Source of the DNA: a virus
Virus record (IMG/VR): IMGVR_UViG_3300040770_000236
Coordinates: 1 to 45,797 of that record
Length of the DNA: 45,797 bases
Reading direction: 5' to 3' (one strand)
The position numbers were made by a program, and so were the translations under genes. The notes under the pieces were generated by a model. The model saw only the letters and a program-made list of their open reading frames with translations, searched no databases and was not told where the DNA came from. Numbering within the stretch: position 1 is the stretch's first letter; each line of letters begins with the position of its first letter. Below, piece by piece: positions 4,915 to 45,797 of the stretch.

Positions 4915-7900
4915 ATGTTAACAAATAGAGAGATATTACAAGAATTCGCCAAAGGTTTAATGGACCCCACATATGCCATTGAGAACTATTTGGAGACTTT
5001 TGATAAAACACAAGAAGGGTTTGTACCATTCAAATTATTCCCAAGGCAAAAAGAGATTATACGTGCTTACGAAAAACATAGATTTAATTTAGTTACAAAA
5101 CCAAGACAAGCTGGAGTATCGACAACAACAGCTGCTTATATGTCAATAAAAGTTGGTTGGGCAGATGTTAAAAACCCAGAAGCTGTTTTGATTATTGCAA
5201 ATAAACAGGAACTTGCTTTTGAATTCTTGGGTAAAATTAAAGATTTTCTAAGTCAATTACCAAGATGGGTTTGGGGTGAAGAATATTATGGTGATGAGAA
5301 AAGGGAATCCAAGACAATTTTCTTGATGGACTCAAAAAAAGAAATTAGATTACCTAATGGTAGTCGTGTAAAAGCAGTTGCGACATCTAAGGATGCACTT
5401 CGTGGATTTACACCAACATATCTTATTATGGATGAGGCAGCATATATTGAAAATGGTGCTGAAGTATTTGGTGCCGCATTAACAGCGTTAGGTTGCTTAA
5501 CTAAAGATTCATTAATATTAACTGATAAAGGATTAGTTGAGTTAGATGAGTTAGTTTCTGAAAAAGACAAATTAGGTTTTAACAACTTAGAAGTACCACA
5601 TATGGTATGTAACAAAAATGGTATATTAACCCCAGCGACACATACATTTGTTAGTGAATATGGTGAAACTTATAAAATAAAAACAAAGCTAGGTATAGAG
5701 TTAGAAGGTAGTTGGAAACATCCCGTATTAATTAAACGAAATGGTGAAGAAATATGGTCTAAAATGGACGAATTAATAATAGGTGATAAACCAATCATTA
5801 ATTATGGTCAAAATTATTTTAATGATGATAGCACATTTAATTTTTCATTTGAGAAACATTTTAACCAAAAAAATATTAATATACCTAATAAATTGTCAGA
5901 TAATTTAGATTTCTGTTATTTATTAGGTTTATTTGTCGCTGAAGGTAACTTTACTAGTAGAGGTATAACGATTACAAATGTTGATAAACAAATTACTGAT
6001 TTCTTAACTAACGATATAGCTAAATTAGGTAATGGGTTTAAACAAGTTGATGATAGGCATTATATGTTTCACTCAACGGAGCTTGTTAATTGGCTTGAAG
6101 CTTTTGGTTTGAAGAAACATAACGCTAAAGATAAAGAAATACCATTAGCAATACTTAAAATGTCTAGAGAAGTTATTATTAATTTCTTACAAGGTATGTT
6201 TGATGGAGATGGTATGTCAACAATTAAAGATATAAAATATTCTAGTACATCTAAAAAATTAATTAAAACATTACAAACTTTACTATTAAATTTCGGTATC
6301 GTCTCACACATAAAAAAAGAAGTACAGAAAACTAGTGTGTCATCTATAATACCTAATAAAGAACATATTTGCATTATTTATAATTTAAAAATTTATTCCG
6401 ATTATGCGACAAAATTTTATAATGAAATAGGTTTTAGATTAGATAGAAAACAAAAAAATAGTGCAAATTTATTAAATAAAAAATTAAATTCTAGATTTAT
6501 TAATGTAACTAAAGAATCAATATTAGAAATTTTAAAAGAAAATAATATAACTAAGAGTAGTGTCAGATTCTTGGATAGATTTTGGGTATCTAAATACGAT
6601 AGATTAACTTATCACTCTTTCAATCGATTAATATTAAAAATACCTAATAATGCTGTATTGATAGAGTTATCAAACCAAATCAGTTACAATGAAAAATACT
6701 ATATTGATGAGATAGTTCTTATAACTAAGGGTGAAGACTACACTTATGATTTACATGTACCAGAAACTAATTCATTTATATCAAATGGTATTGTTAGTCA
6801 TAATACTGGGGGAAAAGCCACGCTTATCTCAACACCTAAAGGTATGGATACTTTGTATTTTAAAACATATGACCAAGCTAAAAAAGGTAAAAACAATTTC
6901 AACATTGTTGAGATGAAGTGGTATGAAGATTTACGTTATAATAAGGACCTTAGATGGCTTAAAGGGGAAGAAGTAGAGAGAGAGATAGAATTTACCTTTA
7001 AATCATACACCAAATGGATTGAGGATGGTTGGAAGCCAACATCTGGTTGGTATGAACAAATGTGTTTAGGTATGAATGGTGATGCTAAAATGATTGCACA
7101 AGAGTTAGATGTATCATTTATTGGGTCTGGTGGTAACGTAATTGCTGAAGAATTTATAGATTATCAGGAAAAGAATAATGTTAGAGAACCAATATTCACC
7201 GAAGGGTTAGAACAAGAAACTTGGATTTGGGCAATACCAGAAGAAGGTCACCAATACGTTATGGGTGTAGACGTTTCTAGAGGTGATGGTGAGGATGCAT
7301 CTACAATAGTAATTATTGATGTAACAACGATGGAACAAGTAATGGAATATCAAGGTAAGATACAACCAGATTTACTAGCACAAATAGTTGAACAATATGG
7401 AGATTTATACAAGGCATATACTGTAGTTGATATTACGGGTGGTATGGGTGTTTCAACTGTATTAAAATTACTAGAATTTCAATATAAAAGACTTCATTAT
7501 GATACATCTAACGGTAAAATATTATCATCAAGACAAAGAGAATTAAGTTCACACGGTAAAACCGACAAAATACCAGGTTTCCAAGCAACATCTGTTCGTT
7601 TACCAATGATTTCAAATTTTGAATATCAGGTTAGGACCAATGGTATTAAAATACGTTCAATTAGATTAATTTCAGAAATGAAGACTTTTGTATTTAAAAA
7701 TGGTAGACCTGACCATATGGAAGGTTACCATGATGATATTTTAATGTCTTGTGCTATGGCATTATGGGCTATAGAATACTCATTTAAAAGTTTAGAAAGA
7801 TTAGAAAAACAAACCAAAGCTATGTTAGGTAGTTGGGTTGCTGGTTCACCTACAGCTACTGTTACTGATATTGAACGTGGAAATGGTTTTGTACCTATTG

Positions 7901-8010
7901 CTGGTAAAAACATAGGCGCATTACCAAAACCAAAATTTAGCCCATTAGTTAGTAAGAACATGCAAGACCCAACTGGCAAATACATGTGGCTATTTAGTGG
8001 TTCGAAATAA
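4915..8010 (+). CDS. terL: Terminase large subunit (T4 gp17-like) with in-frame intein
   Basis: This is the ATPase-nuclease motor that pumps DNA into the prohead. The precursor is 1031 residues; removing the intein (residues 194-630) leaves about 594, close to T4 gp17. The ATPase half shows a deviant Walker A (KPRQAGVST, residues 62-70, with Val where Lys is usual) and Walker B YLIMDEA (169-175). The coupling segment TGGKATLISTPKG follows the intein. The nuclease half shows GVDVSRGDGEDAST (Asp786), VVDITGG (Asp839) and GYHDDILMSCAMA (Asp940/941), the expected RNase H-fold acidic triad. It has its own candidate promoter after a terminator, and the portal gene follows, as expected for a T4-type packaging module. 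Confidence 0.96.
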   Translation: MLTNREILQEFAKGLMDPTYAIENYLETFDKTQEGFVPFKLFPRQKEIIRAYEKHRFNLVTKPRQAGVSTTTAAYMSIKVGWADVKNPEAVLIIANKQELAFEFLGKIKDFLSQLPRWVWGEEYYGDEKRESKTIFLMDSKKEIRLPNGSRVKAVATSKDALRGFTPTYLIMDEAAYIENGAEVFGAALTALGCLTKDSLILTDKGLVELDELVSEKDKLGFNNLEVPHMVCNKNGILTPATHTFVSEYGETYKIKTKLGIELEGSWKHPVLIKRNGEEIWSKMDELIIGDKPIINYGQNYFNDDSTFNFSFEKHFNQKNINIPNKLSDNLDFCYLLGLFVAEGNFTSRGITITNVDKQITDFLTNDIAKLGNGFKQVDDRHYMFHSTELVNWLEAFGLKKHNAKDKEIPLAILKMSREVIINFLQGMFDGDGMSTIKDIKYSSTSKKLIKTLQTLLLNFGIVSHIKKEVQKTSVSSIIPNKEHICIIYNLKIYSDYATKFYNEIGFRLDRKQKNSANLLNKKLNSRFINVTKESILEILKENNITKSSVRFLDRFWVSKYDRLTYHSFNRLILKIPNNAVLIELSNQISYNEKYYIDEIVLITKGEDYTYDLHVPETNSFISNGIVSHNTGGKATLISTPKGMDTLYFKTYDQAKKGKNNFNIVEMKWYEDLRYNKDLRWLKGEEVEREIEFTFKSYTKWIEDGWKPTSGWYEQMCLGMNGDAKMIAQELDVSFIGSGGNVIAEEFIDYQEKNNVREPIFTEGLEQETWIWAIPEEGHQYVMGVDVSRGDGEDASTIVIIDVTTMEQVMEYQGKIQPDLLAQIVEQYGDLYKAYTVVDITGGMGVSTVLKLLEFQYKRLHYDTSNGKILSSRQRELSSHGKTDKIPGFQATSVRLPMISNFEYQVRTNGIKIRSIRLISEMKTFVFKNGRPDHMEGYHDDILMSCAMALWAIEYSFKSLERLEKQTKAMLGSWVAGSPTATVTDIERGNGFVPIAGKNIGALPKPKFSPLVSKNMQDPTGKYMWLFSGSK
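5494..6804 (+). mobile_element. Intein with LAGLIDADG homing endonuclease inside terL
   Basis: The 437-residue insert begins with Cys194 (CLTKDSLILT, block A) and ends SNGIVSHN before Thr631, the standard splice junctions (Cys start, His-Asn end, Thr +1 nucleophile). A block B-like GSWKHPVLI lies near residue 265, and block F is YDLHVPETNSFISNG. Two dodecapeptide endonuclease motifs are visible: YLLGLFVAEGNF (from residue 335) and FLQGMFDGDG (from residue 425), both keeping the acidic residue, so the endonuclease is probably active. It sits between Walker B and the coupling motif, a conserved active-site region typical of intein homing targets. Confidence 0.95.
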
Positions 8011-41134: not shown

Positions 41135-41839
41135 TTATATTTTTATTTCATCGTTATTTAAACCATCATCTGAAATTTCTTCTTCATCTGGTTCTTGTAA
41201 TTGTAACCCTTGTTTAGGTTCTTGTAATTGTAACCCTTGTTTAGGTTGTGGTTTTAACTCTTGTTTAGGTTGTGGTTTTAACTCTTGCCTTTTTTGATTT
41301 AAACCTTGTTGTTGTTGTTGGTAATCTCCACGTAAATTCGCCTCTTTATCTTTAATTGATTGTAATTCATCTGGTGTTTTTATTTTATTTTTACCACCTT
41401 GACTATAACTATAATTATAATCAGCCCATTTTACAGTATTAGCTATATTTTTAGAATCATTACCACCATCAGTCCTAGACTTAATACCAGGTTGGAAATA
41501 TGCGACTTTAGTTATTTTAAAATTATTAATACCATCTAATCTAAATTTTTTATATACATCATTCGGCATAACTAAACCATTTTTAGATAAAACCCTAGCA
41601 TCAATTAAATTACTACCACTAGTTGATACGTTTCGTTGGTTAACCTCTATAAATTGGTTAGAACGTTCACCCTTTGCATTAGTATAATTAATTTCAACTC
41701 TATAATGTTTACCTGGTTTGTCTTTATCACCTAATAGTAGCGTATCCACCAAATTGGTAGATACACCTTCAGATATTTTATTAACCTGTTTTCTACTTTC
41801 TTCTAATATAACTTCTGCGTATAGATTGTAAAGTCTCAT
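41135..41839 (-). CDS. Hypothetical virion-type protein with C-terminal tandem repeats, 234 aa
   Basis: The N-terminus MRLYNLYAEVILEESRKQVN contains I-L-E near residue 13, a weaker version of the L/I-x-E protease site seen elsewhere in this window. A beta-rich domain (HYRVEINYTNAKGERSNQFI, ARVLSKNGLVMPNDVYKKF) follows. The C-terminus has tandem units: ELKPQPKQ twice, then GLQLQEPKQ and GLQLQEPDE. The repeats suggest an extended linker. It is cotranscribed with other structural-type genes. Function unknown; an internal head protein is possible. Confidence 0.6.
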   Translation of the reverse strand: MRLYNLYAEVILEESRKQVNKISEGVSTNLVDTLLLGDKDKPGKHYRVEINYTNAKGERSNQFIEVNQRNVSTSGSNLIDARVLSKNGLVMPNDVYKKFRLDGINNFKITKVAYFQPGIKSRTDGGNDSKNIANTVKWADYNYSYSQGGKNKIKTPDELQSIKDKEANLRGDYQQQQQGLNQKRQELKPQPKQELKPQPKQGLQLQEPKQGLQLQEPDEEEISDDGLNNDEIKI

Positions 41840-43260: not shown

Positions 43261-43896
43261 ATGGCTTTTATAACAAAAATAGATTTTTCAAACAATAGAC
43301 AAGTTAAACAACGTGAGCAAACTAACACTAGTTTATCAGGTTCAACAAGTTTTGGGTTACCTTTTAGTGCGTTAACTAGTGGTCCTAATTTAGATAGTAT
43401 AGTAATAATAAGTGGTTATACTAATTTAAATAGCACATTTTCTGGTAATAGTGGTTCAACAACATATTATTGGGCTAATGCGAATATGGTATTAGGTGAA
43501 CCATCGTTATCTGCGATAACAATTTCAAATTCTGGTGTAACTCAAATAGCTAGTGGTTATGTACCAACATCATCAACGGTTATTGATGGTAATACCGTTA
43601 TTACTAGTTATAGTGGTGTTAGTTACGATGTTAATATTCAGACAATGGTTAGTTTAGGTGGAGGTTCATATAGTGGTACTATATTCACTTCTTTATTAGA
43701 AACACAAACAACTGGAAGTCTTGGGTATCTAGGTAGAACTATTTGGGTTGATGTACCTGGGATTATTAGGGGTGAAAAAATAATATTAACAAAATTAGGT
43801 GTTTATGCTGATAATTCAGCCGCTACCGCTGCGGGTTTAGATGATGGAACGGTATATAGAACTAGCACTGGTGACCTTAAAGTAAAATATACATAA
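43261..43896 (+). CDS. Putative tail or fibre structural protein, 211 aa
   Basis: The protein is Ser/Thr/Gly-rich and all-beta in character: MAFITKIDFSNNRQVKQREQ, TSFGLPFSALTSGPNLDSI, ITISNSGVTQIASGYVPTSS and a well-defined C-terminal region (GYLGRTIWVDVPGIIRGEKI, KLGVYADNSAATAAGLDDGT, RTSTGDLKVKYT). The ending DGTVYRTSTGDLKVKYT resembles short attachment domains of phage fibres or appendages. It is the first gene of the rightward structural block, next to a large adhesion protein, and has an exact copy of the 15-mer promoter motif. The family is not recognised. Confidence 0.65.
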   Translation: MAFITKIDFSNNRQVKQREQTNTSLSGSTSFGLPFSALTSGPNLDSIVIISGYTNLNSTFSGNSGSTTYYWANANMVLGEPSLSAITISNSGVTQIASGYVPTSSTVIDGNTVITSYSGVSYDVNIQTMVSLGGGSYSGTIFTSLLETQTTGSLGYLGRTIWVDVPGIIRGEKIILTKLGVYADNSAATAAGLDDGTVYRTSTGDLKVKYT

Positions 43897-43898
43897 AA

Positions 43899-45590
43899 AT
43901 GGGTAACATAAAAAATTATAATTTTAATAAACTAGACCTTAAATTATCTAATAGTGACTATTGGGATTTTTATTTAAGCACAGATGATAATGGTAATAAT
44001 TGTAATACCCTTTCTATTGGTGACTCATTTGTCGTTTGGTATGACTTTAATAACTCTAATACCTATTTTAATAATGATTATTCTTCATCAGATATTTATA
44101 GTTTAATTACTTGGACAGGTGCAACTAATACTGGTTATACTATGGATACAATAGGTTTAACAGGTATTGATAATGGGTTAGTACCTTATAATAAAATAAG
44201 TGGTGACACTTTAAATTTAGGGTTATTATCGGCATTAACGGGTACTACCCTATTCATACCATCTGGTGATACTAGATTACATATGGTTAAGGTAAGTGGT
44301 TCAACTAATCAATTTATATATGAAAATAATTATAAAATTGACCCTATTTTAAATTTTGGTTATTCTAATTTAAATGGTGGTTTTTATCAAGGCTATTATA
44401 AGTTAGATGGTAATTCATATGAAGTTTTACCAGTTAGAGTTAACCAGTCTTGGTCTGCTGAGTTTTGGATTAAACCTAACTCAACAGTATTAACAGGTAA
44501 TACACTTAATAATAAATACCCAGATAATAAAGGTATCTTTTTTTACATGGGCACACGTGCTGAAAATAAATTTTGGAATACATTTGAAGGTAATAATACT
44601 GGAGATACTAGTGGGTGCACTAGTGGGTGTACTAGTGGGTGTACAATACCTAAAGAAATAGATATTGTGTTATTGGGTGATTATAATATTAACATACCAC
44701 TAAACCCACCATTAATTAATATCAAATTAGAGTTTAACCCATTCCTTATATATGGTAGGGCAAGTAAAACTAATTCTACTTGCAGTTGTGGTAGAAAGCA
44801 CGATGGTTTAGGTACAGAAACTGCTTGTTCATATAGTGGTGGTGGTGTCCCAGTCATAACTTATAGTCAAAACATTACAAATACAACAAACCCATTTCTT
44901 ATATATGGTAGGGCAAGTAAGACTAACGCTACTTGCAGTTGTGGTAGAAAGCACGATGGTTTAGGCACGGAAACTGCTTGTTCTTTTAGTGGTTTTAGTC
45001 AAGACCAAACTGAACTTAATTATAATTTAGACATTATTGATAATGCAATTGGTTTCAGGATAAAAGATGATGGGAGTATTGGGTATAGGTTATTAACAGT
45101 AACTGGTAAATGTAGCGATGATAGAGTTTATAGTAGTGGTATTACTATAGAAGAATCTTATTCAGTTAGTGGTATTGTATCACCAGATATCTGGTCTTAC
45201 ATCGTAATTAAATTTGTAACTGACTATATGGATGATTGTCAACTTAAAACGGAAAAAACTAGAAAGGGTAAACTTATGTTTTACGTAAATGGTAAACTTA
45301 AACATATTATTGATGATTTTGATGAGATAATAGCTAGGAGACTTAACGATAATAATTTAAAACAAGTCGGGGTTCCTTTTAATTTCACTTTAGGTGGTGG
45401 TTCTCAGGGGTTATTAGAGAGCCAGACGTTTGATGGTATAGATGAAATGGATAGAGGTTTACCAATTGAGGAAAATTTTGCTGGTACTTTTATTGGTGGT
45501 TTATCAGAATTTAAATTCAACATAAATAACCTGTCGTTTTGTAATATTACCGATAATTATAATCAAGATAGTTTAAAATATGGATTATAA
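43899..45590 (+). CDS. Putative adhesion protein with LamG-like domain and Cys-rich repeats, 563 aa
   Basis: The N-terminal region (about residues 1-150) is beta-rich. A concanavalin/LamG-like domain follows, with LDGNSYEVLPVRVNQSWSAE, FWIKPNS, then WSYIVIKFVTDYMDDCQ, GKLMFYVNGKLKHIIDDF and EENFAGTFIGGLSEFKFNIN. These segments are typical of carbohydrate-binding LamG-type domains. Between the two halves lies an insert (about residues 237-365) with three TSGC units and two copies of a Cys-rich motif (TCSCGRKHDGLGTETACS). The protein probably sits on the tail or fibres and binds the host surface. It overlaps no other gene and is 2 bases after its neighbour. Confidence 0.65.
   Translation: MGNIKNYNFNKLDLKLSNSDYWDFYLSTDDNGNNCNTLSIGDSFVVWYDFNNSNTYFNNDYSSSDIYSLITWTGATNTGYTMDTIGLTGIDNGLVPYNKISGDTLNLGLLSALTGTTLFIPSGDTRLHMVKVSGSTNQFIYENNYKIDPILNFGYSNLNGGFYQGYYKLDGNSYEVLPVRVNQSWSAEFWIKPNSTVLTGNTLNNKYPDNKGIFFYMGTRAENKFWNTFEGNNTGDTSGCTSGCTSGCTIPKEIDIVLLGDYNINIPLNPPLINIKLEFNPFLIYGRASKTNSTCSCGRKHDGLGTETACSYSGGGVPVITYSQNITNTTNPFLIYGRASKTNATCSCGRKHDGLGTETACSFSGFSQDQTELNYNLDIIDNAIGFRIKDDGSIGYRLLTVTGKCSDDRVYSSGITIEESYSVSGIVSPDIWSYIVIKFVTDYMDDCQLKTEKTRKGKLMFYVNGKLKHIIDDFDEIIARRLNDNNLKQVGVPFNFTLGGGSQGLLESQTFDGIDEMDRGLPIEENFAGTFIGGLSEFKFNINNLSFCNITDNYNQDSLKYGL
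44607..44642 (+). repeat. Three tandem 12-base repeats (Thr-Ser-Gly-Cys)
   Basis: ACTAGTGGGTGC, ACTAGTGGGTGT and ACTAGTGGGTGT follow each other at 44607-44642, encoding TSGC three times in the adhesion protein. Copy number can change without breaking the frame. Confidence 0.9.
44736..44993 (+). repeat. Two 105-base direct repeats encoding a Cys-rich motif
   Basis: The copies at 44736-44840 and 44889-44993 are nearly identical and offset by 153 bases (51 codons). Each encodes NPFLIYGRASKTN followed by TCSCGRKHDGLGTETACS. Of about ten base differences most are silent; protein changes are Ser/Ala and Tyr/Phe. Confidence 0.9.
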
Positions 45591-45621: not shown

Positions 45622-45797
45622 ATGGCTGATAAAAAAATTAGTGAATTAATTGATAATACGAACCCATCTGGTGATAATATAATACCAATAGTTGCTAGTG
45701 GTGTTACAATGAAACAATCACTTAGTGGTTTAAGCGCTTTTTTTAAAACAACTGAAGTATACGTTACTGGTGGAACTTATACAGCTGGAACAGCTGT
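45622..45797 (+). CDS. Tail-fibre-type protein, N-terminal part (runs off the window)
   Basis: The frame opens with MADKKISELIDNTNPSGDNI and continues IPIVASGVTMKQSLSGLSAF up to the right edge, so only 58 residues are seen. The ISEL-x-DxxxPxGDNxIPIVxxGxTxKxSLSxL pattern is common at the N-terminus of phage tail-fibre or appendage proteins of T4-like phages, where it attaches the fibre to the tail. A T4-like TATAAATA occurs just before the start (45611-45618). It lies 31 bases after the adhesion gene. The rest of the gene is outside the window. Confidence 0.7.
   Translation, partial: MADKKISELIDNTNPSGDNIIPIVASGVTMKQSLSGLSAFFKTTEVYVTGGTYTAGTA

Follow-up and report, generated by a model that had tools for sequence, protein, structure and literature searches.

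Duplications of small domains in the tail-fibre adhesin of T4 reportedly expand the host range of the phage. The putative adhesin gene described here appears to share with these duplications recombination between short internal repeats of a fibre adhesin. Copy number changes in T4, whereas here it stays at two and the sequence is homogenised. In gp38, the tail-fibre-tip adhesin of T-even phages, hypervariable loops located between conserved motifs rich in glycine decide receptor specificity (PMC12892980). Both systems belong to T4-like phages and combine a conserved scaffold with hypervariable loops, and in both the gene directly follows a long tail fibre gene. In contrast to the polyglycine-II sandwich of gp38, a LamG-like jelly roll is predicted for our protein, glycine-rich motifs and a polyglycine-II sandwich of the gp38 kind are absent from its sequence, and its loops form a homologous pair evolving in concert. 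Whereas gp38 is located at the fibre tip and determines host range, the place of our protein is known from gene position only. Tandem repeats of BACON domains in crAss-like phages, in which a module of a tail-associated phage protein is likewise repeated, comprise whole domains and arose via duplication and transfer; the study describing them makes no mention of concerted evolution or gene conversion (PMC6949934). Phage virion proteins of the Laminin_G_3 or concanavalin A-like (ConA-like) type, including those of S-PM2, share the predicted fold, to which the family studied here adds a two-unit insert of about 150 residues within the jelly roll. Hypervariable loops in phage adhesins are already known; for paired loops of one protein that change in concert, no precedent was found in the open-access literature searched.

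The window, i.e. the whole stretch of DNA analysed (45,797 nt, IMG/VR record IMGVR_UViG_3300040770_000236), is part of a T4-like phage and encodes a Portal_T4 portal protein, a Gp23-type capsid protein, and a terminase with an intein. The terminase large subunit (4915-8010) is split by this intein, which contains a LAGLIDADG endonuclease domain. The same virus is represented by IMGVR_UViG_3300040786_000030 (L008, 193 kb), which differs from the window by several homopolymer indels; these break the adhesin ORF and are probably caused by long-read assembly errors. This ORF (43899-45590) encodes a putative tail-fibre-associated LamG/ConA-like adhesin of 563 aa, assigned from the ORF, its relatives, and the predicted fold. 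It is preceded in the same cluster by an ORF of 211 aa (43261-43896), in whose place the fibre encoded by relatives is longer and includes a Peptidase_S74 chaperone domain, and followed by an ORF starting with MADKKISELIDNT... that runs off the window (45622-45797) and has similar N-termini downstream in relatives; all three are located on the plus strand. The adhesin gene of relatives lies directly downstream of a chaperone-of-endosialidase (Peptidase_S74) fibre gene, this domain being confirmed by Pfam in both relatives tested and matched by a crude motif-like pattern in 19 out of 45 upstream ORFs, and further fibres and DNA polymerase are encoded downstream. The adhesin gene is thus placed in a tail-fibre cluster.

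Fibres beside the adhesin in two relatives (L002, 3233-6001; L005, 1-10105) are composed of long NFIG or SHAEG (YadA-head-like) repeats with near-identical blocks inside and have a chaperone-of-endosialidase end. An ORF with tandem repeats of the QGLQLQEPK type is located in the window at 41135-41839. In L033 and L046 the ORF just upstream of the LamG gene contains HNH-like motifs (CKDCHKELHK, CKNCHNEIHK), which suggests a homing endonuclease inside the neighbouring fibre gene. All relatives of the adhesin are metagenomic, and freshwater Bacteroidetes are only suspected to be the hosts, by likeness to similar huge phages (PMC9723584).

The AlphaFold2 model of the adhesin (36 sequences; pLDDT 74.6, pTM 0.74) was matched by Foldseek to LamG/ConA-like proteins, PilC, CBM40, many phage ConA-like entries, and virion proteins of cyanophage S-PM2. 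This fold and the location in a tail-fibre gene cluster support the initial annotation of the protein as a LamG-like virion adhesin. The beta jelly roll of the LamG/ConA-like lectin superfamily was found at the fold level only. At the level of sequence profiles, the window protein had no match in Pfam (E<=1), including the profiles of this superfamily, or in PHROG, and Laminin_G_3 was weakly matched by 2 out of 36 members of the family (best E 0.0005). A tblastn search of GenBank phages with the window protein gave no match, and a sequence search of the PDB gave chance matches only. Foldseek alignments extended over 430-540 columns against targets of 220-250 residues, which suggests that the two-unit insert interrupts the predicted jelly roll. 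TM-scores to LamG/ConA-like proteins were low because of this insert. Foldseek matches to neurotoxin receptor-binding domains reflect jelly-roll resemblance only and are uninformative on function here. From its fold, position, and hypervariability, the protein is a putative receptor-binding tip protein, and receptor contact is likely. Surface exposure of the insert loops, which were modelled with moderate confidence (52-71), is plausible.

The insert comprises a direct repeat of 2 x 105 nt with 92% identity and a start-to-start distance of 153 nt. The copies encode NPFLIYGRASKTN[S/A]TCSCGRKHDGLGTETACS[Y/F]SG, each starting exactly at the N of NPFLIYGR, extending through the Cys loop, and ending in CS[YF]SG. 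Unit 1 (44736-44840, residues 280-314) and unit 2 (44889-44993, residues 331-365), both composed of the anchor and the hypervariable Cys loop, are separated by a position-specific linker showing no homogenisation (44841-44888). The C-terminal part of the jelly roll, conserved from DNAIGFRIKDDGSIGYR... onward, follows the insert (45039-45590). Three TSGC units precede the repeat as a 12-nt tandem repeat (44607-44642), all of these features being on the plus strand. The two copies and the TSGC units had been noted before at 44607-44993, and this description was confirmed, as was the statement that most base differences are silent: Six of the 8 substitutions are silent (in F, K, N, G, T, and S codons) and two change amino acids (S/A and Y/F). 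The TSGC units are the form that a Cys-containing linker (TGCTxxC...GCT...CTxPKE) takes in the window; this type of linker varies among relatives and is absent from L001. According to the low model confidence (residues 232-247, pLDDT<50), the TSGC segment is probably disordered. Since 105 nt are repeated at 92% identity and the same paired unit occurs in independent relatives, the repeat is not due to chance.

Scanning IMG/VR with the single window sequence resulted in 16 relatives, and scanning with an alignment resulted in 502 confirmed candidates of which 80 were kept. An anchor pattern search yielded 54 stretches overlapping largely with the scan relatives, and added scans from three relatives mostly returned the same contigs. 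Six distant relatives are located in bacterial genome bins. Removal of near-duplicates left a non-redundant set of 51 genes with two recognisable anchors. Among 75 motif-bearing ORFs, two anchors were present in 64, one (strict pattern) in 11, and three or more in none. In nearly all relatives examined in detail, which mostly share 45-65% whole-protein identity with the window, exactly two NxFLIYGR-anchored units occur in the same position. Anchors are conserved between genes at above 80% (17 genes, equal core lengths), and loop residues at the same position are about 18% identical (17 genes, ungapped register). As two anchors recur across diverse relatives and none has more than two, the pair predates the family and its copy number is stable. 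Hence, the duplication of the unit is ancient. The paired unit occurs in other phages, across the IMG/VR relatives, and the adjustable copy number proposed in the initial annotation is contradicted by a number that stays at two in related phages. In distant members (L010, L012 and similar loci; L082 and L152), the paired segments of the insert are different ones (QNWFQYQGSG..., LLFNRTCTGQTV...), which suggests that two-unit inserts with other anchors may extend beyond the members with NxFLIYGR.

With loop boundaries set by regular expressions, the 51 genes were divided into a class of 31 with both loops compact and a class of 20 with a long extra insertion in loop 1. In the compact class, within-gene loop similarity was 0.620 versus 0.245 for random pairing on the amino acid level (permutation maximum 0.358) and 0.427 versus -0.009 on the nucleotide level (permutation maximum 0.119), random pairing meaning that loop 1 of one gene is compared with loop 2 of another in 10,000 permutations each (p<=1e-4). 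In 17 out of 31 compact genes, the paralogous loop was more similar at the nucleotide level than every ortholog at both positions, which is the relation of paralogs and orthologs expected from gene conversion. Since copies evolving independently after an ancient duplication should be equally similar within and across genes, little correction for relatedness is required here; the 51 genes share a phylogeny, so that pooled binomial p-values are optimistic and the permutation test is firmer. The two loops of the compact-loop members have repeatedly been made alike within lineages, i.e. they undergo concerted evolution. No within-gene excess was found in the long-loop-1 class (n=20; 0.168 versus 0.157, p=0.08), and restricting the comparison to the last 20 core residues gave the same outcome. 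On the scaffold tree, one change is enough to explain the long-insert genes, in line with their having arisen once (support 49/76), and the loss of concert with the insertion thus counts as one comparison and is not proof of cause.

Silent sites point to exchange of DNA between the units. The compact class used the same codon at 551 of 722 identical residues (76%), whereas 57.5% is predicted by the codon usage of each gene itself; the values for the long-insert class were 63% and 58%, and in the window 26 out of 32 codons were the same versus an expected share of 0.54 (p=0.0013). Silent divergence within a gene was 0.28 for the window, 0.07 for L007, and 0.13 for L135, the median silent divergence of the scaffold between genomes being 0.60. 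Nucleotide identity of copy versus copy changed from about 0.36 upstream to 0.94 at the first anchor codon, remained at about 0.88 in the loop, and dropped to about 0.37 downstream, as determined for 17 equal-length genes, a set that favours homogenised cases. The flanks of the units are position-specific, with similarity to the corresponding position of other genes. The paralogous units of the window share 0.95 nucleotide identity over 25 codons, compared to 0.61-0.65 for same-position units and 0.71-0.73 for the scaffold versus the nearest relative L001. In the close pair L041/L036, copy-versus-copy identity is 0.87 in L041 and 0.68 in its sister, as expected if conversion took place in one of them after the split. 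Homogenisation of silent sites with tract edges was thus found, though not in every gene. From these sequence patterns, the main process is likely to be intragenic gene conversion, with selection for matched loops also acting.

The explanation that we regard as reasonably probable is a LamG-like tail-fibre-associated adhesin with ancient paired loops homogenised by short-tract recombination together with selection for matching. Its jelly roll would be interrupted by an insert of two homologous units, each composed of a conserved NxFLIYGR anchor and a hypervariable loop that usually contains Cys. That short tracts recombine between the units, bounded by the limits of homology, is suggested by the silent sites and the sharp edges of the tracts. 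Selection would favour matching loops because both probably share one binding surface or Cys-braced site. The loops would most likely contact the receptor of the host, with pressure from the host driving their diversification.

Selection on the protein level, owing to the same ligand or to mutual pairing, may alternatively keep the loops alike without any exchange of DNA. L062 has near-identical protein loops (pN 0.06) with saturated silent sites (pS 0.55), and silent similarity is also weak in L036 (0.68) and L001 (0.55), so that selection alone suffices in those genes. The equal number of Cys residues in both loops of 27 out of 31 compact genes, compared to 14.6 expected, also agrees with this mechanism. 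As a general explanation it is rather unlikely, given the low pS in L007 and L135 and a sharing of silent codons above the gene's own codon usage that is summed over the class at p=3e-26, the genes being partly non-independent. If one unit were lost time and again and the other then duplicated anew, within-gene similarity and silent identity would likewise result, but this is improbable since both flanks of the units are still position-specific and genes with one or three units are rare or absent. Selection on the motif or recent duplication had initially been offered as alternatives to explain the mostly silent differences. Selection on the motif is retained. A duplication that is recent, confined to one lineage, and adjustable in copy number would fit the 92% identity and the mostly silent differences but is very improbable, because the pair, always as two units, is found across a diverse family down to relatives of about 45% identity; the silent identity instead stems from an old pair having been homogenised repeatedly. 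A diversity-generating retroelement using one copy as template would fit a ligand-binding phage protein with a paired repeat and a variable loop but was rejected as having hardly any probability, since both copies are within coding sequence, the differences are mostly silent and show no A-specific mutagenesis, and only one of the 14 large relatives, the records of which may be incomplete, had a reverse transcriptase domain. A match to the reverse transcriptase profile RVT_1 (E 4.5e-22) is located at 350999-351589 of the 362-kb record of L092 (G010).

The Cys-rich loop is common in the family, but not universal. Compact genes mostly have 3+3 or 1+1 Cys residues, with an odd number per loop in 26 out of 31; 7 of them have 1+1, and in two the second loop has none. 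Equal Cys numbers would follow from concerted evolution alone. In long-insert genes the Cys numbers of the two loops usually differ and parity is not fixed. Cys parity was rejected as proof of an inter-loop disulfide, because even totals were found in 27 out of 31 compact but 13 out of 20 long-loop genes and no general rule emerged. CxxCG is found in each of the two loops in many relatives but is missing from several others, and the window carries CxCG instead. Only compact genes show significant co-occurrence of CxxC between the loops, and for these it is already accounted for by concerted evolution. Given the odd Cys count per loop, one Cys of each loop could pair across as a disulfide. Judging from the motif, paired CxxCG knuckles could hold one metal as a candidate zinc knuckle pair. 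Disulfide formation or metal binding by the Cys loops is plausible. That the two loops constitute one Cys-braced receptor site, both symmetric halves of which are changed at once by gene conversion, is a tentative possibility.

If the loops form such a joint site, the phage would be able to track changes of the receptor without mismatched intermediates. Gene conversion between paired loops under selection for matching, if right, would show a virus altering two halves of a binding surface together. It would also allow a large and mostly unannotated phage protein family, with more than 500 relatives in IMG/VR, to be tested for a role in determining host range.
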